Positions 9,642 through 28,637 of a stretch of DNA of 40,753 nucleotides are shown here, piece after piece (positions within the stretch are counted from its first letter, which is position 1; every line of letters starts with the position of its first letter). Both the position numbers and the translations under genes were made by a program. The DNA lies in contig WYBG01000509.1 in assembly GCA_011526015.1 (NCBI GenBank), positions 1 through 40,753 of the forward strand, written 5' to 3'. A model generated the notes under the pieces. The model was not told where the DNA came from, searched no databases, and saw only the letters and a list, made by a program, of their open reading frames with translations. The DNA comes from Deltaproteobacteria bacterium. Lineage in GTDB: Bacteria > Calditrichota > Calditrichia > RBG-13-44-9 > J075.

Positions 9642-12600
9642 ATGAAATTGGTTGGGAGACTGCTGACTGCATTATCCGCAATCCTGATCATAACGCCGGG
9701 GGCTTTGTTTGCTCAAATTTCTCCCGCCGGTATGGGAAGGGCAAGCGATCCGAATATTGAATTCCATTGGGTGGAAATATCCGACGGAACCGTTATCGGG
9801 ACCACCACCGATGACGATACCTTCTATACCGTAAATCTCCCCTCGGGATTTTCATTTATTTATTACGACCGGTCCTTCGATGCCGTTTACGTCAGCAGCA
9901 ACGGATATTTGACGTTTCGGAATTACGGGGCCAGCGATCCCTATTTTACGAATGACAATTTGTCCGGCGGCAGCGCTCCGGACTCTATGATTGCGGTATT
10001 CTGGGATGATTTGATCCTGAGTGAGAACACTGCCCGGGTGTATCAGAAGGTGATCGGCGCCGCCCCTTACCGGGCATTGGTCATCGAATATAAAGACGTG
10101 TCCCTGAAAGCGGGCAGTTCTCCCCTCACTTTCCAGGTGATTCTGTACGAGACCACCAATCTCATCAAACTGCAATACTTGAGCCTGGGAACCGGCAGCA
10201 ATGGAGAATTGGGCGGCAGCGCCACCGTGGGAGTTAAATTCGGGCTGGATTTCAACACTTATTCTTTTAATAACCCCAGTTTGGCCAATGGGCGGGCAAT
10301 CCTCTTTTTCCCCTCCGCCAATATCAGCGCCATAGCGAATTTGCAGCCGAGCCAGGTGGCCGTGGGAACAAACGGGCAGAAATTCCGCTTTACCCTCAAT
10401 AATATTACCACTGCCGCAACCATTTTGCAGCAGATGGGTAAAGCGGATGTGCTGCGAATCTACAACCCGCTTTCCAACCCGGTTACGGTGGTCGATTCCA
10501 TTGCGGTGGACGGAACGGACTTTTTCTTCATCCAGCGCGCCACCCCGCCGTCGGCCGCGGAATACACCGCTCTGCCCACTATTGCCACCTGGTTTTACAA
10601 TTCCGGCAACGATAGTTTGTACATCCAACTGCCGCCTTATTCTGTCAAGACCAACATTTCGATCAGCTTTCGCATCAACGTGCCTAACCAGTCCCTGGGA
10701 GCTTATAGCTTTGAATCCCGCCTGTATCCCCGGCTGCGGTTTTCCACCGCGGCGCAAAACATTCCCGCGGTTACCTTAACCGCCGGGCCGATCACGCACT
10801 ACACGATTGCACCGCAAACCGCGACCATCACCGCCGGGGTACCGATCCCGTTTACCGTAACGGCGTTGGACGGCTTCAACAACCCGGTGGCGAACAGCGA
10901 CAGCGCCGATATCGAAATATTCGGGAGCGCCAGCGCGACATACCCGCCCCGGGGATTTTTCAATAACAATAGTTTTTTCAATTTCGTGGTGACGGAAACC
11001 GTTGCCGGCGCCTTTACGGCGCGGGCGACCAACGTTAATGACAGCACCCTCACCGCCCAGACCGGTATCATTACCGTTAACGCCGGACTTCCCACCATGT
11101 TGAGCAAAGTCAGCGGAGATACCACCGGGATTGCCGCGGGCGCCAACCGGCTGCTGCGGGCGCGGGTAACCGACCCCCAATCCAACCCGGTCAGCGGGGC
11201 ATCGATCCGCTTTGACGTGGTGAGCGGGGGGGGAAATTTCTCGGGGTTGAGCAGCCAGACGGTGGTATCCGATGGTGAAGGAATCGCCCAGGCGCTGTTT
11301 ACCACCGGCCCGGCTGCCGGGTTGCACCGGGCGAACGCCACCCTGGTTGGCAGTCCCGGGGTGCTCGTGCAGTTCGACGTCACCACGGTACCGGGACCGC
11401 TCAGTTATTTCACGGTCATTCCCGCAACCTTCGATACCACTGCCGGGAGCGATATTCCCGTTACCGTGCGGGGTTTCGATACCAACGACAACCTGGTGAG
11501 CAACGATAACAGCACCGTGGCGGAATTTTTTAGCGATAATCCGGACGTCTCCGTCTCTCCCCTGAGCGCCACCCTCAGCGCCGGGTTGGCCGGCTTTACC
11601 GCCAACAGCGATAAGATCGGCGTTTTCCGGCTCACTGCGCGCAGCCAGGCCAATCCGCTCAAAAACGGGGTTAGCGACCCGGTAACCATCCGGGCGGCGG
11701 CGCCGGATTCGCTCCTCAAATTTGCCGGGGACGGGCAGACCGCGCCGGTAAATTCCCTGCTTCCCCTGCCCATCGAAGTGCGGGTGCTGGATCAATTCCA
11801 AAACCCGGTGGAGGGCGTCACGGTTACTTTTGTGCCCCTCAGTGGGGGCAGCGTGAGCAATCCTACGGATGTAACCGACGCCTCTGGCATTGCCAGCGCC
11901 GGCTGGACCGTGCACAATACCGCCACCCCGGATACCCTGGCGGCCACCATCGTCGGCCAGCCGACCAACCCGGATACGGTTTTCTTTACCGCCACGGTCA
12001 TTCCCGGCGCGGCGCAGAACCTTACCCGGGAGCAGCCGGCCGATACCACCGGGCTGGTGGACAGCCTCCTGACGCAGAGCCTCAGCGTGGTGGTTACAGA
12101 TACGTTTGGCAATCCGCTGCCCAATTTTCCGATCAGTTTCGCCATCGTGCAAAAGCCCTCCGGCGCAGCGAATGAATTTCTTACCGTTAACAACGGCTCC
12201 ACCAACGCCCAGGGGCGGGTACAAACTCAAATTCACTTCGGAACGAAGGTGGGGACTTACGTGGTTCGCGCGTTTTCCGCCTCCACCAATCCCAATTTGG
12301 TGGATTTTATCACCTTTGCGACGCACCGGGCGCCGGATCGCATCCTGCTTGTTGCGGGAAACAGCCAGACCGGCATCGCGGGTCAGGCGCTTAGCGATTC
12401 GGTGCGTTTCCAGTTGGTGGATATTTACGACAACCCGATTGCGGATTCCACCCTCAGCTTCATCCCGCAGCCGCAGAACGGCTCGGTAAACCCGCTCTCC
12501 CGGCTGACCAATGCTTCCGGGCAGGCGGCCACCGCCTGGACCCTCGGCCCGCCCGCGGGAACCCAGAAAATGGTTGCCACATTGTCCTCTCCGGTGCTGG

Positions 12601-15600
12601 CCAGCGATACCGTCTATGCCACTGCCCAGGCAGCAGGAGGGGCATCCCTGGAGTTGGTTTCTATGCGGCAAATCCCTCGCGATTCCATTGCCGCGGTGCA
12701 AGGAGAGAATATTACCGTGATCCTGCGGGCGCTCGACGCCTTCGGAAACCCGGCTTCCGGGGCCCTGGTGAATTACGCAGCCCTGCCGGGATTCAATAAC
12801 ACCCAGTTCGAGTTCAGCCAGGTAACCACCGACGCCCAGGGCCGGGCCATCAACGTGCTCACCACCGACACGGAAAATGATTCCACTTTCTTCCGCGCCT
12901 TCATCGCCGGGGTGGATACCCTGGACCTGCACATTTTCCACCTCCGCTACGCCGGGAACTTGAGCCCCGTGGCGGTGTCGCCGGGCGCTTCGGCGGCATT
13001 CAGCTTAGATTTGGAAAACCTCTCCCCCAACCCGGTGGATTTGAACGCCGGGGCAACCCGCTTTTCCTTCAGCGACGGCAGCGCCCTTTTCTCTGCCCTG
13101 CTGGACAACCCGCTCACTTTGCAGCCGGGGATTACCACGGTAACCTTCATTCCCGGTATCGTTGATACCAATTTTGCCAACGTCAGCTACGCCCCGGAAG
13201 TATTCCTGCGCGGCAGCGGCGAGAACGCCCTGTTGGGCGGCAATATCGTGCTTCCCAACAATTCACTTTCGATCTTCACCCTCAAGGTCGCCCGGGTGCT
13301 GGGCTCCAAAACCCAGGCCACCCTGGGAGATACCCTCACCCTCACCGTGCGGGTCAATAAATTCGGGCCGGTAACGGTGAACGTGGACAGCGTATTCCTG
13401 AACTTTGCCGGGGGAACCACCATCCCGCAGTCCAATATCGTACCTTCCCCGGGCAATCCCACGGTGCTGCCGCCCAATATCAATACCCATGATTTTGAAT
13501 TTGTGGCGACTATTCCCGGAACCGCCTCGGGTTCTTACACGGTCTCGGGGAACTTCCAGGGAAGCACCCTCTCCGGTAACCCCGTGAACGCCAGCTCGGA
13601 TACCAATTTCGTCTTTTCCGTGGGAAGCAGCGCCAATCTTTCGGCGCAATCGCTAACGCCGGATACCCTTACCACCGCGGAGCCGGCCACCTTTACCGCC
13701 AGCCTGGCCAACAACGGCAATTTTGCGGTATTACTGGATCCCGATTTCTCCTACCTGGCCTTCGGAGCCGATACGGTGTTCCTGCGCCAGAGCTACTCCG
13801 TTCCAGCGGGCGGGGTCATAAACCCGGTGGAAGTGGAATTCCGGGCCAATTCGATTCTTTCCCCCGCCCAGGCCTCCCCTTACCCGGTAAATATGCGCCT
13901 GTTCGGGGTGGAAAACGGGATTACCTTCGATACCACCCTGACGGCGACGGATTCTGTTTTAGTGCAGAACCCGCCCGAGGTGGTGGTCGCCAGCATCGTT
14001 GCCCTGGAGGATACCGCGGCGCAGAACCAGGATTCCCTGCGCGCCCTGGTGCGCCTTACCAACAGCGGCGCCCTGAACGCCCCGGCGCGGTTCGCGCTGC
14101 CCCAGGGAATGACCCTTTCGACCTCGGTACTCAATAATATTCCCCCGAACAGCAGTTCCACCTTCACCCTGGCCGCGGGCGATACCACCCCGCCGGTGGA
14201 GTTCATCTTTTCCCTGGGCCCCAACTATCCCACCGGGGTGGAGCGGATTAAGGTGAGTTACAGCTACACCGACGCCAACTCCGGGAGAATTTTCACTCTC
14301 GCCCCGGCGGATTCCGCTACCTTTGTGGTGCTCAGCCGCGCCCGGCTCTCTCTCCAGGCTCATTCCCTGAGCCCGGATACAGTCAGCCCCGGCCAGCCGG
14401 GAGTGGAATTCCGCTTTACGGTGCGCAACGACGGCCAGTCTCCCGCAAAGATTGACAACGGCGACGTCGCGGTTCTGTTCAATAATCCTCACGCCGTTAC
14501 TTTAACCTCTCCCGCGCTCCTGCCGGTGGTTTTAGCGGGCGATTCAACCCGGGAATTCATTTATAACATCGACGTCAGCCCCAATTCCGCCATCGGCAGC
14601 GATTTTCTGGATTTGAGCGTCAGCCACAGCGACACCTTCTCCGCAAAGCGTTACACCGACGTCGCTATTGAGAACCTCGATACTTTGCAGATTGCCGAGG
14701 GGGTAACCGCGGCGCAGGTGCAAATCCAATCCGTGCAGGTAACGCCCGGCAACGCCAACCAGGGCCAGATCGGCTTGCAGGCGGCGGCGCGGATCAAAAA
14801 CTTGTCCAATATTGCGGTGCGGGTCGATACCGTCGCTTTGATTCCCTCCCGCCCGGGAATTGGCGCTGCGCTCATAACGCCCTTGCCGGTGCAAATCGCA
14901 CCCGGTAATACCGCGAATTTCCAGTTCGGCCTGGCCGTTGCTGATACCATGCCGGCCGGAGCGGTTACTATTGACGCGAGTTACCAGGCCACCGACCTCC
15001 TCTTCGGGGTAATGATTTCAGATACCGGGGCGGTGGCTCCCGGAACCCTGAACATTCTGAAACCGGCCAATTTCAGCTTCAGCGCCGTCACTCTGGCACC
15101 GGATACCGCCAGCCAGGGGCAGGGCGGCATCCTGGCCAGTACCCTGGTCACGAACGGCGATGACAGCACCTCTTCCGCGCGGGTGACCGGCCTGCAGGCG
15201 CTCTTCAGCGTGGGCGGGGATACGGTTACCGGGGCGCTGGTCAACCCCACGGTGCTGCCGGTAGTGCCGGGCGGTGAATCCGTGCCGGTACAATTCAGTT
15301 TGAACGTCTCCGATAGCGCCGCTCCCGGCCCGGTGGACGTGCGCATTGCCGCCGCGGGGCTGGATTTGACCGATTCTACCGCGTTTGCGGATACGTCCTT
15401 AGCGGGAACCCTGACCATCCGCCCGCGCGGCAACCTGGCGATTACCGCCCTGGTGATTCCCCCGGATTCGGCTTTCCTGGGCCAGAACGGGGTGCCGGCG
15501 AGCATCACGGTGCAGAATAACGGGGCCGGCGCCGCGCAGCTCAATACCGTCAACCTGGTGCTGCACAATGCCCCCAATTTCCCGGTCGGTTTGCAAACCC

Positions 15601-18600
15601 TTACCCTCCCGGTGATTTTGAACCCCGGCCAGCAGACCCAGGTGAATTACCGTATCGACGTCCCGCCCAACATTTTCCTGCCCAACGGGGACAGTACCAT
15701 CTACGCCGGGGCGACCGCGCAGGGGGTGGAAGTCAGCTCCGGGAAGCCGGTTTCTGCGTCGAGCGATTCCCTGGACAGCTTTGTGATTGCCGCGCAGCCG
15801 GATATCCGCTTCGACGCTTTGCTCTCCTCCCCGGCGTTCGATATCGGCGATACCGCCAATTTCAAACTCCAGGTTACCAACCTCGGCGGCGTCGCCCTGC
15901 GCTTGACCGCCGCCGCCTTCTTGCGGGTTGAGAAAGCGAACGATCCCAACAACTTTTCCACCCAGGCCATTGTGCCCGACTCATCCGATATGAACATTCT
16001 GCCCGGGGAAACCAGCGTGCTGGCGTTCGAGAACCTGGTGATGACCGAAGCGGGCGATTTCCGCCTGCTCCTGGGGATCCGGGGCAATTTTTTCCAGCCC
16101 CCCAACCAGCTTGCTTTTTCACAGGACGTCAATACCCAGGCGTTTATCAATATCGGGGGAGACGTTTCCATCATCCTGGTACGGGTAACCCCCTTTGAAA
16201 CCACCGCGGGAGATACCGGGGTGGTGGTGGACGCGCTGGTGAAAAACAATACCGCCCCGGTTACGATTGATCCCGGGGTGTTGGAATTCGTCTATACCGA
16301 CGTGCCCCAGGCGCTGCCCATCGTGCCCACCCGGCTCGATACCCTTACCCAGGTGGGCACTACCCCCGCCGCGGACACCTTGCGCTGGAAATTCACCGTT
16401 CCGCCCAGCGCCCGCGCCGGGGAGGTGGCAGTAACGGTTCGCCTGACCTTCGGCAACGGCTCCTTAGGACCGATTTCCCGAACCGGTTTCTTCAACATCA
16501 GCAGCGGCGCTAAAATTGAGTATGTTTTCGGCAGTCTTATGCCCGATTCCGTGGTGAACGGGCAGTTGGTAGCTTTCCGGGCCAGCTTCATCAACACCGG
16601 CAGCGCCAATTTCTTCGTGCGGGCGGATAGTTCTTACCTGCAATTCAGCGATCCCCAGCACCTCTATCGCGCCCCGGTAAACGGCAACTTCGTGATCAGC
16701 GGAACCCCCTTTCAGCAAGCCCCGGATACCAGCGAGGTCGCTTTCCAGGCCGATTCCATCAGCGCCGATTTCCTGGCCGGCCTCTACGACGTCGCTTTCC
16801 ATGTTTTCGGCGACCTGCCTAACCAGGATACTTTGACCGCGCTGGATAGCACGTTTACCGGCCAGCTCACCGTGCTGCCGGAAGCGATGGTGACGGTGGA
16901 CTCCGTTTCTGTGGTTCCGGACGCGGTGATCGCCGGGCAGGAAAACGTGCAAATCCGCTATTTCCTGCGCAATTCCGGGCAATCGGCAGCGAACCTCAAC
17001 GCCGCTATCGATGTTTTCAGCGACAGCCTGGGCAACGACATCAGCGCGCTCTGGAGCCTGCAAACCCAGTCGCAGAACTTCCCGTTTATCCTGCCGCCCT
17101 CCGGCGCGGCCGTGCTCACCCGCAACTTCATCGTTTCCGGGGTACATCCCCCGGGGCTGGTGCGGGCGTGTTTGAACGTAAATTACAACGACGTGCGCAA
17201 ACCCGGGGTAATCCTCCTGGCTGCCGATTCCACGGTATATGATTCGGTGCGGGTGATCATTCCTTCGGAATTGTTCGTGGACAGCCTGGCGCTGGTGAAC
17301 GTGCCCAACGCCGCCAACGGCACGGTTAATTTCAACCAATCCTATGAATTGAAGCTGGTGCTGCAAAACAGCGGTGAAGATTCCGTCACCAACGTGACCA
17401 TCCGTCTCTTCAACGACGCCAACCAGACCGTGGTGTTTACCCAGACCATCAGCGATACGGTGCTGGCTCCCGGGGCCAGCTTCCGCCGTGACTTCCCCTT
17501 TACCGCCGGGGGAGCCAGCCAGACCCTGCGCTACCGCATGGTCATTTTAGAAGCATTTTCGGTTACCTCCAACACCCCGGTGGCTATCGGGGAGCCCCTG
17601 GATAATCGCGAAGACGTAACCGTACAATCGCCTACCCAGTTGACCCTGGCGGCGCAGCTTCCCGGCGGGGACGTTTACTCCCAGGAGCAGCAATTTACAG
17701 TCAGTTTTGATATTGTCAGAAGCGGGCAAAGCCCCTTTGGCAACGGTTCGGTAAGGATTCAATGGCCGGCCGACTACACCTTGATCTCCCCCAACGCCCA
17801 ACTGCCCGTCGGGCCGGCGATTTTGAACGGCTCCTGGCAGGTACAGGCCTCCGCGGATACCACCGTGGGTTCTGCGGACACCATTATTGTATTTTATTCT
17901 GCCATCCCGCCGGACCTGAACACCGCTGCGCCGGTACTACTGGCCAACGACAGCCTGATTCTGCTGGTGCGGGTGGCGGAGAGCGGGAAGGTGGAAGTGG
18001 CGGATATCAGCATCATCGCCCCGCCGGGCGCGCTCGACTCCACGGTTTCGACCGGCCAGAACTTCCGCCTGAGCGCGACCATTTTGTATTCCGGGAATGT
18101 TTCACCAAACAACCGCACCGCCCGGATAATCCTGCCCCAGGGATTCTCCACCGACCCGGATTCCATCGAGCAAACCCTGCAAGGGGACCTGGTTACCGCG
18201 CAGTGGCCGGTTAGCGTGGCGGAGAATATTCTCCCCAATCTGGCAAAAGCAGTCCCCCGGGGGGCGCAAGAGCAGTTGCCAGGAGCAGATGCAGAAGCAG
18301 CCGGGGTGCAAAACTTCAGTTTTGCACCGGCAAGCGACGGGCGGCAAGGTGAGAAATTACGCTTAGGGGGAGCAGAGGGGGTTTTAGGTGAGACGTTTGA
18401 TCTGCAAGTTCGTGCCCGGGGCATAGACGGCGGCGATACCACCCGGCAATTTAGCGATACCGCGACCCAACAGGTTACCGTGGTAGAACGCGCCGAGCTG
18501 TTGATGCACGCCGCGGTGGTGGATCCGCCCGGGGCGACCCAGGGAACGGTGAGCACCTACCAGCCCTTCGACGTGCAAATCTGGGTGGAAAAGCAGGGCG

Positions 18601-21600
18601 AGGCGGCAGTGCTGCCGGATGATTCCAATTACGTGGCTATCAAAGTGCCCCAGGGATTCCGCATCGAGGGGCTGGCCGCAGGCGACAGCTTGCTGAATTA
18701 CGGCATCAAAACCGGGTTTGCGGAGGCGGATACCATCCGCATATTTGCCCCGGAAACCGTACCCCCGCAGCAGCCGCTGATTCTCGCCCGGCTGGATTCG
18801 ACTGCACGGGATGAGAATACCAACCAGCCCGCGCACGTCCGGCAGGCGCTGGCGTCCTTCAACCTGGCCGTGGAAACCCGCGCTTCCTTGCGCATCGACA
18901 GCCTGGGCGCGGGGCTGGACACCCTCACCCAGAATCAAGATTTCACCCTGCAAGGATTGATCAGCAATACCGGCGAAGCCGATATTCAGCCTAACAACAA
19001 CGTGACCGTGAAGCTGGCGTTCGACACCACCGCCTTCCGGCTGCTCAATCCCGCGGATTCCGTTAAAACCGTGCAGTTGGTGAACAAACAGGCGCTGATT
19101 TTCTGGCAAATGCGCAGTAAACCCGACGCCAGCGGCAGCGGGAATCCCTACCTGCTCAGGGCTTCCATCGACAGCACCCTCTCCTGGGATGAAAACGGTT
19201 TCCCGGGTATGGGCGTGCACCTGGAAAAAGGCAGCGACACCGACACCCTCACCATCGTTGACGTGGGAATTTTCGCCATCTCCGCCGCGTACCTGAACGC
19301 CCCCGGAACGGACAGCTTGACGGTTTCCACCCAGCAGCAAGTGCGGGTGACCGTGGAGCCGCAAATCAGCGGTAATTTCATCAACCGGGTGGCCACCCTC
19401 TACCTGCCGGACATTTTCACGCTGGATTCCCTAATTGCGCCCATTTCCGCCGCGGGAAACCCGGTGCAGTGGAACATCCAGGTTCCCGATTCCCTGACCA
19501 ATCTTTGGGAAGAGTTGAAAGTGAAAATTCGCGGGACTTCCCAGGTCAGCAGTACGGTGACGTTAGAAGATTCCGCGTTTCTCTATCTTTACGTTCAGAA
19601 GCGCGCCGCCCTGGCAGTTGATGGGCGGGTTGCCGGCGGCGCGGTGAACAACACCGTCAGCCAGGGACAATTCTTTGTGTATGAAGCAGTTGTCGCCAAC
19701 GTCGGCCAGGCCGGGGTTGCGGCGGCGCCCAAAGGGCAATTGACCCTCTCCCTGGGAGAGAAATTAGTGATCGACCCGGACAGCCTGGTAAAAGAATTTG
19801 ACCTGAATGCCCCGGTGCGCTGGACCATCCAGGCGTCGGAAAACGGCCAGGCGGCGGCGCTGCTGCGCCAGATTCACGGCGCGAAGCAGGAAAAAGCTCG
19901 CCTGATTGCCGCGGCGCAGCAGGCCGGCGCGGCGGAAGGGGAAGGAAGCGCCGGGAACCCGGGCCGGAGCGTTGCCAGCCGCGGGGCGGCGGTTTTCCGC
20001 GGAATCGAGAAATCCGCGGATCTGCGCCGGCTCGAAGACGAGCTTTCCGGCCTCTACCGCCTGTTGAACGCGCTGGTGGATACCTCGCTGGTGAAAGTAA
20101 CCATCACCGCGCGGCCCCCGGATGTTAATTCCGGGCTTCCCGCGGCCGTGGAGGTCGGCAGCGATTCTACGGCGATCTTCATCGCCGAGAAACCGGAGAT
20201 TACCATCATCCGCAATACCGCGCCGGCGGTCTGGTCCACCGAACAGGTGGGAATTCTGGAAGTGGAAGTGGACGCGCCGGAAAACGTGATCGAGCGCAGC
20301 GGGACTTTGCGGCTGCCGGAGGGATTTTCCTTCCTCAACCCCGCGGATTCGCTAAAAGCGTTCGGACAGAACGCCGTGGTGAACTGGGTGATTCAGGCCA
20401 ACCAGGGCATTCCCCAGCCCACCCTCCCGGGCATCCTCACCGTGATTGTGAGCGGGCGCGACGCCAATACGCCCCCGCCCAACGCCACCGTGGTGCGCGA
20501 TACCGTGGAGGTGCCGGTGAGCGTGCAGCGTAAAGCACTGCTGGATTTGGCCAGCCAGACCGTTTCCGTGCGGGTGTTGAAGGGCGAGCAGTTCGTGCTG
20601 CAAGCCTCGGTAAATAACGGCGGCGAGGCGGACGTGCAGGGAACCGGGCAGGTGAGATTGAACATCGGGGAGGTGGGATTCCAGTTTGCCGACGGGGAAA
20701 CCGCGGAAAAAGATTTTGTCATCGACAACCAGACCAACACCGCCAGCTTCCAATGGACCCTGCTGGCCCCGAATTTCGACGTGAATACCGTCTTTACCCT
20801 GGGCTTCACCCAGTTGCCGCTGGACGTCAACACCCAGAACCCGGCCAGCGTGGGGGTCAATACCCTGGTGTTCGACATCAACATGGTTTCCAGCCAGATC
20901 ACCATCAAGCCGCTGGACAGCGTGGTAGAGGTGGATAACAGCTACATCCAGGGAGAGCGGGAAATTGGGGTGCTGGGCGCGGCGTTTATCAATCCCAATA
21001 CCGTGGAAACAATTTTTATCAACAATTTTGACATTGCCGTGCTGGACGGGGAAACCGGAACCCCGGTCGCGGATATACACAACCTGATTTCCCGGGTCGA
21101 GGTGGTCAGTTATGATTTCTACCGCCGGCAATTAGGCAAGCCTGGCAGTCCCCCGGATCGTCTGGGCGAGCTGCCGATTACCGAGCAGACTGCTAACCCG
21201 GTGAAGATAAATTTCAGCCCCGTGGACACCCTCAATGCGGAAGAAAGCGACAGCCTGGTTATCCGTATCGATCTGGCCAACCAGCCTATCAGCCGGAATT
21301 TCAGAATTCAACTGAAGCAGGTTGACGCCTCCGGGGGGTTTGTGGGCAAGGTGAACGTGGTGGATTCCCTGGGCGCTCCCCTGGCGGCGATCCAGCTTCA
21401 ATCCCCGCGGGTAACGCTGCTTTCTTCGGACCCCAAAGAGATCTTCCATAATTACCCCAATCCCTTCGGAATGGAAACCCGGCTCCCCGGGGCGCCCCCC
21501 GGTGTCACCCGCTTTAATTTCCTGATGGAAAACAGCGGGGACGCGGAATTGCGCATTTTCACCCTTACCGGCCGGCTGGTCTGGAGCAGCGCGGTAAACG

Positions 21601-21758
21601 GCCTGCCCGCGGGGTTGCATACCTCGGCCCTGGAATGGGACGGCAGGAATTCCCAGGGCGACCGGGTAGTTAACGGGGTATATGTGGCTGTGCTGAAGGT
21701 CAACTACGGCAGCGGCGGCGGTGCTACATTCCAGACGAAAGTGGTTTATATTAAGTAG
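9642..21758 (+). CDS. giant secreted multi-repeat surface protein with C-terminal sorting domain
   Basis: This 4038-residue protein has a signal peptide (to about residue 25, ending A-L-F-A-Q). Residues about 35-225 resemble the nidogen-like β domain found in secreted FCB proteins (V-Y-V-S-S-N-G-Y-L-T-F, then F-W-D-D-L). Residues about 384-1090 hold seven invasin/Big_1-like Ig domains with the recurring D-x-x-x-N-P-V and S-G-x-A motifs. From about 1100 to 3900 there are about 20 CARDB-like repeats of roughly 120 residues, each opening like L-x-L-x-S-L-x-P-D-T-x-x-x-G-Q and containing V-x-N-x-G. Later repeats share a D-x-N-[TS]-x2-P element. Helical insertions interrupt two repeats (about 2868-2915 and 3400-3475). 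HNYPNPF at 3936-3942 opens a FlgD/T9SS-type C-terminal domain ending K-V-V-Y-I-K. The likely role is a long surface or extracellular fibre; the ligand is unknown. Confidence 0.88.
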   Translation: MKLVGRLLTALSAILIITPGALFAQISPAGMGRASDPNIEFHWVEISDGTVIGTTTDDDTFYTVNLPSGFSFIYYDRSFDAVYVSSNGYLTFRNYGASDPYFTNDNLSGGSAPDSMIAVFWDDLILSENTARVYQKVIGAAPYRALVIEYKDVSLKAGSSPLTFQVILYETTNLIKLQYLSLGTGSNGELGGSATVGVKFGLDFNTYSFNNPSLANGRAILFFPSANISAIANLQPSQVAVGTNGQKFRFTLNNITTAATILQQMGKADVLRIYNPLSNPVTVVDSIAVDGTDFFFIQRATPPSAAEYTALPTIATWFYNSGNDSLYIQLPPYSVKTNISISFRINVPNQSLGAYSFESRLYPRLRFSTAAQNIPAVTLTAGPITHYTIAPQTATITAGVPIPFTVTALDGFNNPVANSDSADIEIFGSASATYPPRGFFNNNSFFNFVVTETVAGAFTARATNVNDSTLTAQTGIITVNAGLPTMLSKVSGDTTGIAAGANRLLRARVTDPQSNPVSGASIRFDVVSGGGNFSGLSSQTVVSDGEGIAQALFTTGPAAGLHRANATLVGSPGVLVQFDVTTVPGPLSYFTVIPATFDTTAGSDIPVTVRGFDTNDNLVSNDNSTVAEFFSDNPDVSVSPLSATLSAGLAGFTANSDKIGVFRLTARSQANPLKNGVSDPVTIRAAAPDSLLKFAGDGQTAPVNSLLPLPIEVRVLDQFQNPVEGVTVTFVPLSGGSVSNPTDVTDASGIASAGWTVHNTATPDTLAATIVGQPTNPDTVFFTATVIPGAAQNLTREQPADTTGLVDSLLTQSLSVVVTDTFGNPLPNFPISFAIVQKPSGAANEFLTVNNGSTNAQGRVQTQIHFGTKVGTYVVRAFSASTNPNLVDFITFATHRAPDRILLVAGNSQTGIAGQALSDSVRFQLVDIYDNPIADSTLSFIPQPQNGSVNPLSRLTNASGQAATAWTLGPPAGTQKMVATLSSPVLASDTVYATAQAAGGASLELVSMRQIPRDSIAAVQGENITVILRALDAFGNPASGALVNYAALPGFNNTQFEFSQVTTDAQGRAINVLTTDTENDSTFFRAFIAGVDTLDLHIFHLRYAGNLSPVAVSPGASAAFSLDLENLSPNPVDLNAGATRFSFSDGSALFSALLDNPLTLQPGITTVTFIPGIVDTNFANVSYAPEVFLRGSGENALLGGNIVLPNNSLSIFTLKVARVLGSKTQATLGDTLTLTVRVNKFGPVTVNVDSVFLNFAGGTTIPQSNIVPSPGNPTVLPPNINTHDFEFVATIPGTASGSYTVSGNFQGSTLSGNPVNASSDTNFVFSVGSSANLSAQSLTPDTLTTAEPATFTASLANNGNFAVLLDPDFSYLAFGADTVFLRQSYSVPAGGVINPVEVEFRANSILSPAQASPYPVNMRLFGVENGITFDTTLTATDSVLVQNPPEVVVASIVALEDTAAQNQDSLRALVRLTNSGALNAPARFALPQGMTLSTSVLNNIPPNSSSTFTLAAGDTTPPVEFIFSLGPNYPTGVERIKVSYSYTDANSGRIFTLAPADSATFVVLSRARLSLQAHSLSPDTVSPGQPGVEFRFTVRNDGQSPAKIDNGDVAVLFNNPHAVTLTSPALLPVVLAGDSTREFIYNIDVSPNSAIGSDFLDLSVSHSDTFSAKRYTDVAIENLDTLQIAEGVTAAQVQIQSVQVTPGNANQGQIGLQAAARIKNLSNIAVRVDTVALIPSRPGIGAALITPLPVQIAPGNTANFQFGLAVADTMPAGAVTIDASYQATDLLFGVMISDTGAVAPGTLNILKPANFSFSAVTLAPDTASQGQGGILASTLVTNGDDSTSSARVTGLQALFSVGGDTVTGALVNPTVLPVVPGGESVPVQFSLNVSDSAAPGPVDVRIAAAGLDLTDSTAFADTSLAGTLTIRPRGNLAITALVIPPDSAFLGQNGVPASITVQNNGAGAAQLNTVNLVLHNAPNFPVGLQTLTLPVILNPGQQTQVNYRIDVPPNIFLPNGDSTIYAGATAQGVEVSSGKPVSASSDSLDSFVIAAQPDIRFDALLSSPAFDIGDTANFKLQVTNLGGVALRLTAAAFLRVEKANDPNNFSTQAIVPDSSDMNILPGETSVLAFENLVMTEAGDFRLLLGIRGNFFQPPNQLAFSQDVNTQAFINIGGDVSIILVRVTPFETTAGDTGVVVDALVKNNTAPVTIDPGVLEFVYTDVPQALPIVPTRLDTLTQVGTTPAADTLRWKFTVPPSARAGEVAVTVRLTFGNGSLGPISRTGFFNISSGAKIEYVFGSLMPDSVVNGQLVAFRASFINTGSANFFVRADSSYLQFSDPQHLYRAPVNGNFVISGTPFQQAPDTSEVAFQADSISADFLAGLYDVAFHVFGDLPNQDTLTALDSTFTGQLTVLPEAMVTVDSVSVVPDAVIAGQENVQIRYFLRNSGQSAANLNAAIDVFSDSLGNDISALWSLQTQSQNFPFILPPSGAAVLTRNFIVSGVHPPGLVRACLNVNYNDVRKPGVILLAADSTVYDSVRVIIPSELFVDSLALVNVPNAANGTVNFNQSYELKLVLQNSGEDSVTNVTIRLFNDANQTVVFTQTISDTVLAPGASFRRDFPFTAGGASQTLRYRMVILEAFSVTSNTPVAIGEPLDNREDVTVQSPTQLTLAAQLPGGDVYSQEQQFTVSFDIVRSGQSPFGNGSVRIQWPADYTLISPNAQLPVGPAILNGSWQVQASADTTVGSADTIIVFYSAIPPDLNTAAPVLLANDSLILLVRVAESGKVEVADISIIAPPGALDSTVSTGQNFRLSATILYSGNVSPNNRTARIILPQGFSTDPDSIEQTLQGDLVTAQWPVSVAENILPNLAKAVPRGAQEQLPGADAEAAGVQNFSFAPASDGRQGEKLRLGGAEGVLGETFDLQVRARGIDGGDTTRQFSDTATQQVTVVERAELLMHAAVVDPPGATQGTVSTYQPFDVQIWVEKQGEAAVLPDDSNYVAIKVPQGFRIEGLAAGDSLLNYGIKTGFAEADTIRIFAPETVPPQQPLILARLDSTARDENTNQPAHVRQALASFNLAVETRASLRIDSLGAGLDTLTQNQDFTLQGLISNTGEADIQPNNNVTVKLAFDTTAFRLLNPADSVKTVQLVNKQALIFWQMRSKPDASGSGNPYLLRASIDSTLSWDENGFPGMGVHLEKGSDTDTLTIVDVGIFAISAAYLNAPGTDSLTVSTQQQVRVTVEPQISGNFINRVATLYLPDIFTLDSLIAPISAAGNPVQWNIQVPDSLTNLWEELKVKIRGTSQVSSTVTLEDSAFLYLYVQKRAALAVDGRVAGGAVNNTVSQGQFFVYEAVVANVGQAGVAAAPKGQLTLSLGEKLVIDPDSLVKEFDLNAPVRWTIQASENGQAAALLRQIHGAKQEKARLIAAAQQAGAAEGEGSAGNPGRSVASRGAAVFRGIEKSADLRRLEDELSGLYRLLNALVDTSLVKVTITARPPDVNSGLPAAVEVGSDSTAIFIAEKPEITIIRNTAPAVWSTEQVGILEVEVDAPENVIERSGTLRLPEGFSFLNPADSLKAFGQNAVVNWVIQANQGIPQPTLPGILTVIVSGRDANTPPPNATVVRDTVEVPVSVQRKALLDLASQTVSVRVLKGEQFVLQASVNNGGEADVQGTGQVRLNIGEVGFQFADGETAEKDFVIDNQTNTASFQWTLLAPNFDVNTVFTLGFTQLPLDVNTQNPASVGVNTLVFDINMVSSQITIKPLDSVVEVDNSYIQGEREIGVLGAAFINPNTVETIFINNFDIAVLDGETGTPVADIHNLISRVEVVSYDFYRRQLGKPGSPPDRLGELPITEQTANPVKINFSPVDTLNAEESDSLVIRIDLANQPISRNFRIQLKQVDASGGFVGKVNVVDSLGAPLAAIQLQSPRVTLLSSDPKEIFHNYPNPFGMETRLPGAPPGVTRFNFLMENSGDAELRIFTLTGRLVWSSAVNGLPAGLHTSALEWDGRNSQGDRVVNGVYVAVLKVNYGSGGGATFQTKVVYIK

Positions 21759-21878: not shown

Positions 21879-23813
21879 ATGAGAGGTTTGAAACAATTTC
21901 CCGGGAAAGCATGGGCGCTCCTCTTGATAGGAATGCTGAGCATTGCGCCCCCGCAGGTTTGCGCGCAGGAGGGAACGGCGGGAACCCAGACCATCCTGCA
22001 CGAAGTGGGCGCCGGGGCCCGGGTTTTCGGGCTGGGGCGCGCCTTTGTGGGGCTGGCGGATGACCCCTCGGCGATTTTCTGGAACCCCGCCGGGTTGGAA
22101 TACGCGCCGCGGATTTCCTTTTCCCTTTTCCATACTCCCCTGGTGGTGAGCGGGGCCAGCTACGATTTCATCGGGTTCCTCTATCCGACGTTGCAGTTGG
22201 GCACCATCGGGATTGGTTATGCCCGGGTGGGGGTGGGGGACATCAATGTTGTAACGGAATACAACCAGGTGTTGCAGGGGGTATCCGCGGACTATGATTT
22301 CAGCGAGATTTATATTGCTTACGCCAAGAAGGTCTGGTACGGCGTCACCCCGGGCATTACCTTCAAAGTACAGCGGCAATCGTTTTCCTACACCAACCAG
22401 GTAACCAGCGCCTTTGGCCTTGATGCGGGTTTGATGTATCGCCCGGAGTCTGATTCCCCGTTTCTGAAAAACCTCTCCTTCGGCTTCCATTTTCAAAATT
22501 TGGTTAAGCCGCAGCTAAAATTAGGCGCCAATACCGACACCCTGGCCTACCAGCTCACCTTTGGAATGATGAAGAGCCTGCCCATCGGCCAGAGCGGTAA
22601 ATTGAATATTCTGTTCGATTACGCCCAGGGAGAATTCGAGGGAGGGGTTATTCACGCCGGCAGCGAATACGTGTTCCGGGAGATGGGCACGGTTCGGGTA
22701 GGGTTCGACCAGGGCACCCCCGCCTTTGGAGCCGGGCTGCGCTATAAATTCCTGGATATTGATTACGCTTTCGGCAATCTGAGCACCGAGGGCGATTTTG
22801 GCGCTTCCCATCGTTTTTCGATCACCTTCAATTTGGGGAAATCGCGGGAAGAAAAAATCTTTGCAGCGAACGAGGAGCGCAAACGCCGGGAACGGGAATT
22901 GGTGGAGCGCACCAAAGAAGACGACCGGCAGCAGCGGATTGCCCAGAACCTGCGCCAGGGGAAAGAAGATTTGCAAAAGGGGAATTACTTCGAGGCATTC
23001 TCCGATTTCCAGCAAGTGATGGCCGACGATCCCTTTAACAAGGAAGCCAAGGCGCTGTTCGACAGCACCCGGACCTTGATCGACGATCAAATTGAGAAAC
23101 GCTCGCAGGAAGCGGCCAACCAGGCGCTCGACAAGGGTCTGGCGGCGGAAAACCAGAAATTTATCCAGTTGCACTTCAAGCAGGGGCACATTCACCTGCA
23201 AAATAAACAGTTCACCGACGCCTTGAAGGAGTTTAACTTAGCACTGGAGCGCACAGAAGATGACTCCCTGACTGCTTTGATCAGCGAAGCGATCAATACC
23301 ACCAACCGCCAACTGAATGCGGAAGTGCGCAAGCTGGTGCTGGCGGCGCGGCAGGAATTCCAAAAGGGCAATTACTCGGATGCGCTGCGCATTCTCAGCG
23401 AGGCTTTCCTGCTCTCCCCGGAAGCGCCGGAGCTGAAAGATGAGATCGGCACCCTCACCAGGCGCATCAAATTGCAGCAATATACCGTCAAAGGGTTGGC
23501 GCTGCTGGAGTTAGGCGAGTACCAGGAGGCGAACGTGGTGTTCGAAGAAGCGCTGAAGCTCGATCCCTCTAACGAGGCGATCCGCAAATACTACGAACAG
23601 ACCCAGCGCGAGTTGGGCACCAAACGGGAGAAGATGGATCCGGAATCCGAACGGCAGTACCTCATCGCCACGGAACATTTCCTGGCCGGGCGCTATGATA
23701 AGGCGCTGGAGATCTGGAAAGCCCTGGCGGATAAATATCCCTATAACAAAAAACTTCAGGATGCTATTAAAACGACCGAAGATCGTATTAACCGTACCCG
23801 GGGGAATCAATAA
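21879..23813 (+). CDS. PorV/PorQ-family outer-membrane barrel fused to TPR region
   Basis: This 644-residue protein has a signal peptide (cut after C-A-Q near residue 30). Residues about 30-320 match the PorV/PorQ (UPF0164, FadL-like) outer-membrane family: G-A-G-A-R-V-F-G-L-G-R-A-F-V-G-L-A-D-D-P-S-A, F-W-N-P-A-G-L-E, and many alternating β-strands ending at L-G-K-S. A charged helix (about 322-345) then leads into TPR-like helices to the end: KEDLQKGNYFEAFSDFQQVM, K-Q-F-T-D-A-L-K-E-F-N-L-A-L, ARQEFQKGNYSDALRIL, and L-E-L-G-E-Y-Q-E-A-N. In Bacteroidota PorV-type proteins help the type IX system release and anchor CTD-bearing cargo. Here the gene directly follows a cargo with an NYPNPF-type domain, so a dedicated export or anchoring role is a reasonable inference. 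Confidence 0.85.
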   Translation: MRGLKQFPGKAWALLLIGMLSIAPPQVCAQEGTAGTQTILHEVGAGARVFGLGRAFVGLADDPSAIFWNPAGLEYAPRISFSLFHTPLVVSGASYDFIGFLYPTLQLGTIGIGYARVGVGDINVVTEYNQVLQGVSADYDFSEIYIAYAKKVWYGVTPGITFKVQRQSFSYTNQVTSAFGLDAGLMYRPESDSPFLKNLSFGFHFQNLVKPQLKLGANTDTLAYQLTFGMMKSLPIGQSGKLNILFDYAQGEFEGGVIHAGSEYVFREMGTVRVGFDQGTPAFGAGLRYKFLDIDYAFGNLSTEGDFGASHRFSITFNLGKSREEKIFAANEERKRRERELVERTKEDDRQQRIAQNLRQGKEDLQKGNYFEAFSDFQQVMADDPFNKEAKALFDSTRTLIDDQIEKRSQEAANQALDKGLAAENQKFIQLHFKQGHIHLQNKQFTDALKEFNLALERTEDDSLTALISEAINTTNRQLNAEVRKLVLAARQEFQKGNYSDALRILSEAFLLSPEAPELKDEIGTLTRRIKLQQYTVKGLALLELGEYQEANVVFEEALKLDPSNEAIRKYYEQTQRELGTKREKMDPESERQYLIATEHFLAGRYDKALEIWKALADKYPYNKKLQDAIKTTEDRINRTRGNQ

Positions 23814-23949: not shown

Positions 23950-26634
23950 ATGTTCAAGAATATCTCAAAAGAAGAAATTGTCGTCCCCGCCTCGATGGCG
24001 CACCTGAAAGAAATTCGGGATTTCATCGAGCAGATCGGGAAAAAGTACAAGATTTCCGACAAGATCATCAATTCCTTCAAACTGGTGGTGGATGAAGCTT
24101 GCACCAACATTATCCGCCACGGCTACAAGGATATCAAAGACGGCAAAATCACCATCCGGACCATCATCCGCCGCTTAAGTCTTACCATCGTGGTTATTGA
24201 CCAGGGCAGGAGCTTCGATCCCCGCCAGGTCAAAGACCCGGATTTGCAGAAGTATGTGCAGATCGGCAAGAAGGGCGGTTTGGGCATCCACATGATGCGC
24301 AAGCTGATGGATGATATCCAGTATAACATCACCAGCCACGGGAACGAGCTTCGTCTGGCCAAGACCCGGGAAGCGGTAGAAGAATCGAAATATCTCTCCT
24401 GGTTTAGCACTCTCTCGCTGCGCAATAAATCCTTCATGGTAACATCAATCATTATGGTGATTTTGACCTTAGCGGCGTATTTTCTCCTCAAGGCGGGGAT
24501 CGAGTTCGACGTTCGGGAAAAAATATTTGCCGAAGCCAGTTCCATCAGCAAAGATTTTGCGCGGGTCAATTACGAGCCGGTTCGCCAGGAGAAAGATACG
24601 CAGCTCTTTGAAAACGCCAAATCCATTCAGCAAAGCCGCAGCGAAATGCTCCGTATTGTGATGATCCTGAAGCAGAACCTGGAAGTAGTGGCGTTCTATC
24701 CCATCAATCTGGAACTGGTTCCCCAATCGATGCGCTTCGACAACTTGAAAACCATCGCCACCCTCGAAGACGTAACGGTGTACCAGACTGCCATGACCGA
24801 CTCGGGCCTGGCCTATTATTTCGTTTCTCCCATTCAACTATCCATCGATCCGGCGCCAATCGGATATACCCTGCTGGGGATAGACGAGGTTTACATTCAC
24901 AGCCTGGTGATAAAACAAAAGAACCGCCTGATTTTCATGCTGCTGCTGGTATTTGCCCTGGGTACCGCGGGAATCGCCCTGCTGGTTACCCTGATCACCA
25001 AACCGTTCCATAAACTGGCCGAGTGGGTGCGGCAGGTTGGCCGCGGGCAGGTGGACCAGGATGAGATCGACATCGACGCCAGCGACGAGGTAGGGGAAAT
25101 TGCCCAGGCCTTTAGCGAAGTAACCAATAAATTCCGGGAAGCGCAGATCAGCGTCATCGAACAACAGCGGATGCAGAAAGAATTGCAGGTGGCGCAGGAA
25201 ATCCAGCAGATGCTGCTGCCGGATGATTTCCCGGACGTGGTGGGGTACGACATCGCTTCTTATTACCAGTCCGCCAAAGAGGTGGGCGGGGATTTGTTCG
25301 ATTTTATGGAGATCGATGACCAGTCGATCGGGATTTGCGTGGCCGACGTATCCGGCAAGGGGGTTCCCGGCTCCCTGGTGATGACCATGATCCGCACCTC
25401 CCTGCGGTTGGAATCCCGGGGCAATAACAACCCCGCGGACATTATGACCCGGGTGAATTCGTTTGTGACCGACGATATTCGCAAGGGCATGTTCGTGACC
25501 ATGCTGTACGTGACCCTGGATTCCCGGGAGCGCATGGTCTCCTTCGCCAGCGCCGGCCACAATCCCATGATTCTCTATCGCGGGAAGAGCAAGGAAACCT
25601 ATTATCTCAATCCCTCCGGTTTTCCGGTGGGGATTACCCTGCCGGACATTCGCCTGTTCGGGGAAAAAATTCAGGCCGACCGCATTCGCCTGCACCCGGA
25701 TGACATTTTCATTCTCTACACCGACGGGGTTACCGAAGCGATGAATCCCCAGCGGGATTTGTACGGGGAAGAACGTTTCCTGGCTGCCATTCGCAAATAC
25801 GGGCACTTAGACGTGGATGAATTTGTCACGAGCATCAAGGATGACATCTTGGCCTTTACCGGCGGGTTCGAACAAAATGACGATATTACCCTGGTTGCCA
25901 TTAAAGAAAACATGGCTGCGGTCGATGTTAAGGTAAATACGTTCAAAAAATTGTTCGAACAAGTGCAGGCGGACAACAACCAGTCGGTTGCCGAGACCTG
26001 CAAAGAAGTGGGAGTTTCCCCCACGACCTTCTACCGCTATAAGCGTATTTACCAGGAAGGCGGGTATGACCTGCTGCGGGAAATGCTGCATGGTTACACC
26101 AACCTGGGATTGCGGCATTTAAGTATTGAAGTTAAAACAAAAATGTATGATATTATCCGGCAATACCCGGAGTATGGGCCTAAGAAGATCAGCGATATGC
26201 TGAATACGGAAAAATACGGATATACGGAGATTTCACCGTTCCTGGTCTATGAAGAGTTGCGGCGGGCAAAATTGAACACCAAAGAGCAGCGGCTTGCCTT
26301 TGTGCAGCGCGGCGGGAAAAAGCGGCTCAAACCTCCCGGAACCCCGCTGCTAACCCTGGACGGAGAGGTGATGGTCGGTTTCCGCAGCGATGATCAGAAG
26401 ACAGTGGATTCACCATTTATGCCTAACCTTCCCCCGGCCAAGTCCCGTGCGAAGGAAAAAATGATCTCCGCGCGGGGAAAACGTATCCCCGGCGCCTTTA
26501 ACGGTGAATCCTCAAATCAGAAACCTGCCCCGGCGCAAGGCGCGGCGGTAGAGGAATCTGCATTCGAGGAGCCGGCGGAGGAAGATGCGGAAAGCAAAGT
26601 GGATATTGTGGGAGACGAGGAAACTGAAAAATAG
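23950..26634 (+). CDS. membrane RsbW-like kinase / SpoIIE phosphatase with C-terminal transposase-type HTH domains
   Basis: This is an 894-residue regulator. Residues 1-140 are an RsbW/SpoIIAB-like ATPase: N-box D48-E49-A-C-T-N53, G1 box D84-Q-G, G2 box G109-G-L-G. A TM helix (about 158-183), an extracytoplasmic sensor (about 184-315), a second TM (about 327-349) and a HAMP linker follow. The PP2C/SpoIIE domain (about 400-655) keeps its metal aspartates D448 (GGDLFD), D466 (VADVSGKG), D592 (YTDGVTE) and D644 or D645 (NDDIT). Then come a helix-turn-helix (about 660-715, AETCKEVGVSPTTFYRYKR) and a second one (728-786) with the Y-G-P-K-K-I-S pattern of IS3/IS481-type transposase N-domains. No DDE catalytic region follows. 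The tail is Pro/Glu rich. The downstream STAS gene has a homologous C-terminal module. Confidence 0.9.
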   Translation: MFKNISKEEIVVPASMAHLKEIRDFIEQIGKKYKISDKIINSFKLVVDEACTNIIRHGYKDIKDGKITIRTIIRRLSLTIVVIDQGRSFDPRQVKDPDLQKYVQIGKKGGLGIHMMRKLMDDIQYNITSHGNELRLAKTREAVEESKYLSWFSTLSLRNKSFMVTSIIMVILTLAAYFLLKAGIEFDVREKIFAEASSISKDFARVNYEPVRQEKDTQLFENAKSIQQSRSEMLRIVMILKQNLEVVAFYPINLELVPQSMRFDNLKTIATLEDVTVYQTAMTDSGLAYYFVSPIQLSIDPAPIGYTLLGIDEVYIHSLVIKQKNRLIFMLLLVFALGTAGIALLVTLITKPFHKLAEWVRQVGRGQVDQDEIDIDASDEVGEIAQAFSEVTNKFREAQISVIEQQRMQKELQVAQEIQQMLLPDDFPDVVGYDIASYYQSAKEVGGDLFDFMEIDDQSIGICVADVSGKGVPGSLVMTMIRTSLRLESRGNNNPADIMTRVNSFVTDDIRKGMFVTMLYVTLDSRERMVSFASAGHNPMILYRGKSKETYYLNPSGFPVGITLPDIRLFGEKIQADRIRLHPDDIFILYTDGVTEAMNPQRDLYGEERFLAAIRKYGHLDVDEFVTSIKDDILAFTGGFEQNDDITLVAIKENMAAVDVKVNTFKKLFEQVQADNNQSVAETCKEVGVSPTTFYRYKRIYQEGGYDLLREMLHGYTNLGLRHLSIEVKTKMYDIIRQYPEYGPKKISDMLNTEKYGYTEISPFLVYEELRRAKLNTKEQRLAFVQRGGKKRLKPPGTPLLTLDGEVMVGFRSDDQKTVDSPFMPNLPPAKSRAKEKMISARGKRIPGAFNGESSNQKPAPAQGAAVEESAFEEPAEEDAESKVDIVGDEETEK

Positions 26635-26640
26635 CGGCCG

Positions 26641-26749
26641 TTAAACCAGGATGGTTTAATCCCTGCCGGTAGAAGCCGTGCGGCAGGCCGTTAAGTGCGC
26701 CGGAAAAGAATGTTTTGTCGGGACCACGGAGCAGTCGAAAAACTTAACG
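26641..26749 (+). promoter_or_regulatory. three successive hairpins in the leader of the STAS gene
   Basis: The gap between the phosphatase and STAS genes holds three perfect inverted repeats: TTAAACC/GGTTTAA (26641-26647 with 26653-26659), CCTGCCG/CGGCAGG (26662-26668 with 26681-26687) and CGTTAAGT/ACTTAACG (26689-26696 with 26742-26749). None ends in a T-run. They could be RNA leader structures or protein-binding palindromes; which one is not decidable from sequence. Confidence 0.55.
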
Positions 26750-26828
26750 ACCCTTTCAGCAGATGAAAATTTGGAATAAACAAGGACGTTTAACAATACA
26801 GACCGGAAACCATTATACGGAGGAATGA

Positions 26829-27611
26829 ATGGAAGGCATTCAGGTATCCACCCAGGCTGTGGGGGCGCATAGCCAGATTTCTATTATCAGGGTCGGGGGG
26901 TATATTGATACGACCACTTCTTCGGAAGTAGAGCGGGAGCTGAACAATCTTTTGAAGATGGGGAAGTATCAAATTATTATCGACCTGGGCAACGTGGATT
27001 ATATCAGCAGCGCGGGCTGGGGGATTTTTATCAGCGAAATCAAACAGATTCGGGAGAACAACGGCGACCTGAAGTTAGTGCGGATGATCCCGGACGTCTA
27101 TGAAATCTTCGAGCTGCTGGAATTTCACCACATTTTGGACGTTTACGATACAATCGAAGCGGCGATCAATAAATTCGAGGAATCTCAATACGTAGAAATG
27201 GTTTCCAGCACTCCCCGGGAAGCGCAGGACGCGCGCCCGGCCTTTTCCCCGGAGCCGGTGGCGCAGGGGCCTACCATCAGCCGGATGGATACCCCGCCTC
27301 GCGCGGAAGAACCCGCCCGCCCGCCCCGGGTTACCCCGGCGCAGGAACCGCCCCAGCGCCCGGCAGCTAAAAAACCGAGCATTCTCGACATGGTCAGTAT
27401 GTCCGTGGAAGATAAGATTCGCTATATTGTAGCCAGGAATCCCGACCTCGGCGCCTACCGGATTCACAAATGGCTGAATACCGCGGATTTCGGTTTCACC
27501 CGGGTCGGCTGGCTTAAAGTGCGTTCCTGGCTGAAAAAGATGAATTTGAACAGCCGTGATAAGCGGCGGGCGTTTGCCGCCAATTATCGCAATATGCAGA
27601 GCGGCGCATAA
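26829..27611 (+). CDS. STAS-domain anti-sigma-antagonist-like protein with transposase-type HTH C-terminus
   Basis: This is a 260-residue protein. Residues about 8-115 form a STAS domain of the SpoIIAA/RsbV type, with IIDLGNVDYISSAGWGIFIS. Ser61 aligns with the phosphorylated serine of SpoIIAA, while the preceding Asp of the usual D-S-S-G is replaced by Ser60 (S-S-A-G). Residues about 130-185 are a Pro/Ala/Glu linker. Residues 193-250 align without gaps with residues 728-785 of the upstream phosphatase (18 of 58 identical, including L-N-T and the R-x-A-F end), a winged-HTH of IS3/IS481 transposase type. The start ATG follows CGGAGG by five bases. By analogy it would be phosphorylated by the RsbW-like domain and dephosphorylated by the PP2C domain of its neighbour. 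Confidence 0.88.
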   Translation: MEGIQVSTQAVGAHSQISIIRVGGYIDTTTSSEVERELNNLLKMGKYQIIIDLGNVDYISSAGWGIFISEIKQIRENNGDLKLVRMIPDVYEIFELLEFHHILDVYDTIEAAINKFEESQYVEMVSSTPREAQDARPAFSPEPVAQGPTISRMDTPPRAEEPARPPRVTPAQEPPQRPAAKKPSILDMVSMSVEDKIRYIVARNPDLGAYRIHKWLNTADFGFTRVGWLKVRSWLKKMNLNSRDKRRAFAANYRNMQSGA

Positions 27612-27943
27612 AGATTTCAGTGAAGATTCACGGCGAGCCGGCCAATCACTGACGTTACGCATTTTGCCACATGGTTCGATAAACTCACCATGCAAAAGAC
27701 ACAGAGAACACGGAGTTTTAATCAATTTATGGTTTTTTTGCTTCTCAGTGCAGACTTAGGTTCAATGAATATTTGATTTTCTCTGTGACTCTGTGGCTAA
27801 TCTTTTGGCCTGCGTAACATCAGTTAATCATTCACCATTCTCGATTCGTCCATGCGTTAGCGCGGTTGCGCCGGAAATGTGAATGGAGAATGGTGAATTT
27901 GGAAGCTCGCTGCCATACCACCATCCATCACCGCCTCAATCCC
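27612..27943. repeat. repeat-filled gap before the DUF4159 gene
   Basis: There is no credible gene here. It holds a small CATGGT/ACCATG hairpin (27670-27692), a pair of CACAGAG-type arms (about 27697-27720 and 27778-27800) that resemble each other in inverted orientation, and an exact 13-base inverted repeat, ATTCACCATTCTC (27830-27842) with GAGAATGGTGAAT (27886-27898). Confidence 0.7.
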
Positions 27944-28609: not shown

Positions 28610-28637
28610 CGCGGAATGATTTAAAAACGAGGAACCC

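Follow-up and report, generated by a model that had tools for sequence, protein, structure and literature searches.

In the partner switches RsbU/RsbW/RsbV and SpoIIE/SpoIIAB/SpoIIAA, the kinase, the phosphatase and the STAS domain with its phospho-serine reside on separate proteins that lack helix-turn-helix (HTH) tails, and the output is a sigma factor. In CapK/CapS, a GHKL kinase controls a STAS-winged HTH protein that acts directly on DNA; CapS is a dimeric repressor that leaves the DNA once its equivalent serine is phosphorylated (Chambers et al., EMBO J 2026, PMC13373217). In SypE/SypA of Vibrio fischeri, one protein bears both a kinase and a phosphatase and controls, by an unknown route, a STAS protein encoded in a polysaccharide locus (PMC10120452, PMC8256260). 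Here we describe a gene pair from a stretch of 40,753 nucleotides (the window; contig WYBG01000509.1 of assembly GCA_011526015.1, phylum Calditrichota), in which the gene for a membrane protein with both enzymes, the receptor, is followed by that for a STAS protein, STAS1, and the two proteins carry similar HTH tails. A second tailed STAS protein of the same genome, STAS2 (G000:C372), lies among exopolysaccharide genes. We propose, with a probability of roughly 0.5, that these proteins form a membrane-receptor partner switch with DNA-binding-type STAS-HTH outputs at surface-matrix operons. The features of the pair are as follows.

23950..26634, plus strand: receptor, 894 residues, with RsbW-type kinase, membrane/HAMP region, SpoIIE (PP2C) phosphatase, HTH1 and HTH2 tail (open reading frame, Pfam, orthologue alignment)
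23983..24363, plus strand: RsbW-type HATPase kinase domain, receptor residues 12-138 (HATPase_c_2, E 9e-29)
24982..25113, plus strand: HAMP domain, receptor residues 345-388 (Pfam, E 2.9e-7)
25315..25905, plus strand: SpoIIE/PP2C phosphatase domain, receptor residues 456-652 (Pfam, E 2.5e-49)
25972..26076, plus strand: HTH1 (HTH_28/23/29/Tnp_1 type), receptor residues 675-709
26110..26304, plus strand: HTH2, the receptor tail, residues 721-785, homologous by alignment to the STAS tail (BLASTP, profile-profile comparison, AlphaFold)
26329..26364, plus strand: near-invariant LKxPGTPLLTLDG segment 3' of the receptor tail (orthologue alignment)
26829..27611, plus strand: STAS1, 260 residues, with STAS domain, disordered linker and HTH tail (open reading frame, Pfam, AlphaFold)
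26868..27164, plus strand: STAS domain, STAS1 residues 14-112 (Pfam, E 2.1e-19; SpoIIAA/RsbV by structure and sequence)
27009..27011, plus strand: Ser61 of STAS1, predicted phosphorylation site (aligned to SpoIIAA Ser58)
27207..27380, plus strand: variable linker, STAS1 residues 127-184 (low model confidence)
27384..27590, plus strand: STAS1 tail HTH (HTH_21-like), residues 186-254 (Pfam, BLASTP, profile-profile comparison, AlphaFold)

Relatedness of the tails

An earlier note on this DNA had aligned receptor residues 728-785 with STAS1 residues 193-250 without a gap, with 18 of 58 identical, and both its coordinates and its counts were reproduced exactly. With BLASTP, receptor 721-785 and STAS1 186-250 were identical at 20 of 65 positions (E 3e-8). 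When the STAS tail was shuffled, none of 5000 sequences reached the observed score of 92 (the shuffle maximum was 51), and a profile-profile comparison of 77 STAS proteins with 70 phosphatase tails, alignment against alignment, gave E 2.4e-14 over 71 columns. The shuffles and the profile comparison ruled out a chance resemblance, and together with the BLASTP match they led us to conclude, from sequence, that the receptor and STAS tails are homologous.

The second HTH that the note placed ahead of the receptor tail proved real (HTH_28 at 675-709, E 8e-6), and its assignment of both tails to a transposase type was borne out by matches to several HTH models. The NCBIfam IS481 transposase model matched receptor residues 674-780 at E 9e-10 and the STAS tails more weakly; HTH_28, HTH_32, HTH_23, HTH_Tnp_1 and HTH_29 each matched the HTH1-HTH2 region in 34-44 of the 70 receptor homologues; and the STAS tails matched HTH_21 (11 of 28, best 3.7e-7) and HTH_Tnp_Tc3_2 (8 of 28). 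The best, weak, sequence match of the tail profile in the PDB was the DNA-binding subdomain of the Sleeping Beauty transposase (5unk, E 0.018). The types and order of HTH1 and HTH2 in the receptor are those of IS3/IS481 and Tc1/mariner-type transposases, from which the proteins described here differ in having no matched catalytic domain, in being fused to signaling domains and in their vertical distribution. The receptor HTH1-HTH2 region therefore reads as a bipartite transposase DNA-binding region, and the STAS tail as the second half of such a region. A 392-residue protein of the same genome, an IS630-like transposase by eye (G000:C276:7971-8138, locus L015), weakly matched receptor HTH1 (E 0.026) and was the sole additional match to that region in the genome.

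AlphaFold modeled three or four helices in the same order in both tails, with a predicted local distance difference test score of 95-98 over most of the STAS1 tail, but no beta-hairpin in either; the description of the tails as winged is thus unsupported. A Foldseek search of the PDB with the receptor-tail model returned nothing significant, and matches to the STAS model came mostly from its STAS domain, leaving the tail fold without a structural match. Neither the receptor nor STAS1 matched a DDE or other transposase catalytic domain in Pfam or NCBIfam. The STAS tails are strongly basic, with mean net charges of +7.8 and +9.4 over some 66 residues, as compared to +3.9 for the receptor tails. 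Helix 3 differs in kind: it is basic in the STAS tail (R46, K/R47) and acidic in the receptor tail (D/E47, E48), where it contains an invariant Tyr and a near-invariant Glu.

Comparison with known partner switches

As judged from the domain matches and alignments, the pair has the traits of a partner switch, namely an RsbW-type kinase, a SpoIIE/PP2C phosphatase and a STAS serine at the position of SpoIIAA Ser58. The larger protein is more than a phosphatase: it also has a kinase domain, HAMP and two HTHs (Pfam). The kinase domain matched RsbW of Bacillus subtilis (6m36) at E 2.5e-15 with the N-box EACTN retained, and its ATP-binding motifs are intact and kept in orthologues, as are the metal-binding phosphatase motifs VGGDLFDF, VADVSGKG and QNDDIT. 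By eye, two hydrophobic segments flank the presumed sensor region. Ser61 of STAS1 is invariant across 77 homologues, and a linker of about 60 residues, modeled with low confidence, separates the STAS domain from the tail. The window's genome contains 19 SpoIIE matches.

Like CapS, STAS1 has an HTH domain C-terminal to its STAS domain and a serine at the SpoIIAA Ser58 position, and the gene for an RsbW-like (GHKL) kinase is adjacent. The HTH of CapS, however, is MarR-like and winged, whereas the STAS tails here are of HTH_21/Tc3_2 type with no predicted wing. CapK is a soluble HTH-STAS-GHKL protein, activated by single-stranded DNA and lacking a phosphatase domain; the receptor, in contrast, has the order HATPase-membrane-HAMP-SpoIIE-HTH-HTH, with kinase and phosphatase on one membrane protein and the same tail as its presumed substrate. 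CapK/CapS also controls immune operons and has no shared tail. The pair resembles SypE/SypA in having serine kinase and serine phosphatase on one protein and no known sigma factor, and in that its presumed output is a STAS protein encoded among polysaccharide genes, which holds for STAS2 but not for STAS1. SypE differs in that it is a response regulator, soluble and with a central REC domain; Pfam found no REC match in the receptor, where HAMP takes that place. SypA differs in being a lone STAS domain without an HTH. On these defining parts the pair belongs to neither system. It may nevertheless work on the same principle, and CapK/CapS sets the precedent that a STAS-HTH protein controlled by phosphorylation on DNA works in principle. 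The earlier note knew of no described example; this stood for the shared tail, and not for STAS-HTH action on DNA under a GHKL kinase, which is published (PMC13373217). We likewise found no description of the spread of the tail or of the slippage presented below, and no paper combining Caldithrix abyssi with SpoIIE, or a STAS domain with transcriptional slippage, was found in a search that left most subscription journals outside.

Occurrence across phyla

In 40 Calditrichota genomes, tailed STAS proteins were present in all 40 and a tailed receptor in 38; in one of the other two the STAS1 contig stops before the receptor (G022), and the other is a 72% complete genome with STAS2 alone (G010). 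The receptor and STAS1 genes adjoin wherever the Calditrichota contigs permit. Beyond this phylum, the pair was also seen in candidate division KSB1, Zixibacteria and FCPU426. This wider set was gathered with a STAS-plus-tail query; it consists of the top 80 of 184 loci and so samples STAS proteins with a bias. In these 80 loci, a tailed receptor lies upstream of the tailed STAS gene wherever the DNA extends to the neighboring gene. A search of 20 non-Calditrichota genomes with the tail profile yielded almost exclusively the receptor, STAS1 and STAS2, the exceptions being four additional tailed proteins, two of receptor type and two of STAS type, and 67 of 80 Zixibacteria genomes gave a tail match.

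In a tree of the tails, the receptor tails formed one clade (100/100), and so did the STAS2 tails (100/99), with two extra STAS copies apart; the tree was built on 67 columns, and its deeper forks are beyond their resolution. From this distribution the descent of the tailed pair looks vertical across phyla, and we take the pair to be old. The conservation of both tails in orthologues, on which the earlier note's idea depended, was found. Its word "domesticated" also fits, given tails kept in orthologues without a catalytic domain, a descent that appears vertical and the near absence of other tailed proteins from the 20 genomes.

Neighboring operons

Two genes upstream of the receptor in the window are conserved neighbors:

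9642..21758, plus strand: giant secreted immunoglobulin (Ig)-repeat protein, 4038 residues, with a FlgD_ig/CHU_C-like end (synteny, Pfam)
21879..23813, plus strand: outer-membrane protein, PorV-like by eye, with TPR repeats (TPR by Pfam; synteny)

The order giant Ig-repeat, PorV-like/TPR, receptor, STAS1 extends from Calditrichota to KSB1 and to part of Zixibacteria. All 20 Calditrichota loci examined have STAS2 among exopolysaccharide genes, which include SLBB export, chain-length and sugar-transferase genes; at one of these loci a gap leaves just a single such gene visible. In nine KSB1-type or unassigned genomes STAS2 immediately precedes the SLBB export gene, and two genomes (loci L258 and L259) have a further exopolysaccharide operon, each with its own tailed STAS protein. 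An apparent glycosidase-STAS2 fusion at L206 is spurious and arose from a stretch of N. The neighbors included surface-protein or exopolysaccharide genes rather than an immune operon, no PADLOC search having been run.

Sigma-54-type -24/-12 promoters (TGGCAYN5TTGYW) were seen upstream of STAS2 at L250:5394, L251:6650, L253:4924, L255:6804 and L262:7561, that is, at the STAS2-exopolysaccharide operon of KSB1-type genomes, with hardly any elsewhere in the loci and none upstream of either operon in Calditrichota. Farther upstream of these promoters, three KSB1-type genomes (L248, L251, L253) have the palindrome GNAACAWTGTTNC; since the same operons carry -24/-12 promoters, an enhancer-binding protein accounts for it better than a STAS operator would. 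A perfect palindrome in the window, TTAAACCAGGATGGTTTAA (26641-26659, just 3' of the receptor stop codon), was rejected as an operator, as it is not kept in a genome of the same genus (L115).

An A-run at the STAS-tail junction in Zixibacteria

The STAS domain and the tail lie in overlapping frames in many Zixibacteria. An A9-A11 run was found 17-29 nucleotides past the STAS domain in 34 loci, in-frame cases included:

L291-L309, L313, L316-L327, L329, L279: Zixibacteria loci with an A9-A11 run

Nineteen runs of at least nine A/T occur in the 162,625 bases of 20 regions from Zixibacteria with such overlapping frames, where 2.6 are expected from base composition, and each of the 19 is an A-run on the coding strand at the STAS-tail junction. 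Sequencing error as the cause of the split frames was ruled out, because 34 loci share the A-run at a single site and the 20 regions contain no further stretch of nine or more A/T. Of 32 loci read through, 14 have STAS and tail in frame, and 18 are split, 17 of them at -1 and one at +1; one frame always gave the HTH tail for 93-108 residues, and the other two ended after no more than 10 codons, or 25 at one locus. All 32 A-run loci with a recognizable receptor have a receptor without a tail, and the six loci of this phylum whose receptor is tailed lack the A-run (Fisher p 7e-6, a value that does not count independent events because the loci are related). The run was found in none of 77 loci from other phyla and was not seen in the window's phylum.

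Transcriptional slippage at A-runs is known from dnaX of T. thermophilus, mxiE and insertion sequence elements (PMC1088944). The Zixibacteria run is like these in having at least nine A inside a coding region, followed by frames that give long and short products, and differs in lying at the STAS-HTH junction of a signaling protein. The loci show what marks programmed slippage, in that a conserved run of at least nine A sits where the frames meet and another frame encodes a conserved product. We conclude that the run probably causes programmed transcriptional slippage which would make two STAS isoforms, only where the receptor is untailed; ribosomal frameshifting at the run is the alternative.

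Proposed mechanism and alternatives

The partner switch that we propose builds on the observed architecture, tail homology, motifs, descent across phyla, genomic linkage and slippage-type run. A signal received through the extracytoplasmic region and HAMP of the receptor would tip the receptor toward either its RsbW-type kinase or its SpoIIE phosphatase activity. The two activities would thereby set the phosphorylation of Ser61 in STAS1 and, presumably, of the corresponding serine in STAS2, the protein encoded among the exopolysaccharide genes. Phosphorylation would in turn control STAS dimerization or receptor binding, and hence the occupancy of DNA by the basic HTH tail near the surface-protein and exopolysaccharide operons, whose regulation and its sign are likewise presumptive. 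The receptor HTH1-HTH2 pair, as a fuller version of the same transposase region, would probably be accessory, binding DNA, tethering the receptor or competing with the STAS tails. The complete set of kinase, phosphatase and STAS serine, the homology of the tails and their transposase type, the strongly basic STAS tails, the conservation of the tails over phyla, the position of tailed STAS proteins inside the operons they would control (including the further exopolysaccharide operons at L258 and L259), the lack of a SigB/F/G-type sigma factor over the cut-off in six genomes and the precedent of CapS all favor this proposal. Several points weigh against it: the recognition-helix residues vary among STAS tails; the receptor tail has the lower charge, with the invariant Tyr and near-invariant Glu in its recognition helix; DNA binding by a membrane-bound receptor is unusual; a search for operators at the operons found none; and the sigma-54-type promoter at the KSB1-type STAS2 operon indicates that another regulator acts there.

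The tails might instead be protein-protein modules, with the receptor tail docking the STAS tail and bringing the STAS protein to the kinase and phosphatase, so that one receptor could tell its cognate STAS1 and STAS2 from the other partners in a cell with numerous STAS and SpoIIE proteins. One module common to both partners, the acidic receptor helix 3 opposite the basic STAS helix 3, and the number of competing SpoIIE proteins speak for such docking, which we consider possible yet on balance unlikely, as HTHs of this lineage bind DNA in transposases and as the STAS tail is kept without a receptor tail in 32 Zixibacteria loci, with the reverse at L289. This separable occurrence (most sampled Zixibacteria have the STAS tail without the receptor tail) rules out an obligatory tail-tail pairing, so that the contact through the tails envisaged by the note may be at most facultative. 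A bolder form of the DNA-binding proposal, in which receptor and soluble phospho-substrates share a domesticated transposase DNA-binding unit and read the same DNA sites, switching partners through shared DNA occupancy with no sigma factor, and in which programmed transcriptional slippage sets the share of HTH-bearing STAS protein where the receptor is untailed, is in our view somewhat more doubtful than docking.

A classical switch with accessory tails, in which STAS1 would release a sigma factor held by the receptor's RsbW-type domain, would suit kinase and STAS domains so close to RsbW and SpoIIAA/RsbV, as well as the sigma-70 family proteins below the SigB/F/G cut-off that are present in six genomes. 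A SigB/F/G-type sigma factor over the cut-off was found in none of the six; no sigma gene is among the recurring neighbors of the pair, and the tails are conserved over phyla. We therefore think this classical route very unlikely. If anything slightly less probable still is a post-translational action of STAS2 on the exopolysaccharide export machine, as considered for SypA-like proteins, with the tail binding the machine: STAS2 does lie beside export and chain-length genes, in an operon that in KSB1-type genomes already has its sigma-54-type promoter, but a basic transposase-type HTH would be an unusual choice for this task, and STAS1, with the same tail, lies outside such an operon.

The proposed STAS-HTH switch bears on how non-canonical STAS proteins such as SypA, whose target is unknown, act without a sigma factor. 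A possible answer lies in the protein itself, an HTH on the STAS protein that several phyla have retained and that is associated with operons for surface proteins and exopolysaccharide, and STAS1 and STAS2, each tailed, offer a concrete test bed. The pair also connects the domestication of transposases with signal transduction, in phyla that have been little studied, and the Zixibacteria loci add what looks like broadly conserved bacterial programmed slippage in a regulator.

Additional observations

Genes for a DUF4159 protein, a 1145-residue coiled-coil membrane protein and an 898-residue patatin/BamA-like protein (by eye; window 27818-32075 and 36214-38913) lie 3' of the pair in most Calditrichota, not in KSB1. 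The LKxPGTPLLTLDG segment of the receptor is missing in Zixibacteria and kept in Calditrichota and KSB1. Outside the window's order, the receptors at L088, L147 and L257 have 200-600 extra residues past the tail, with TPR repeats at the end in KSB1.

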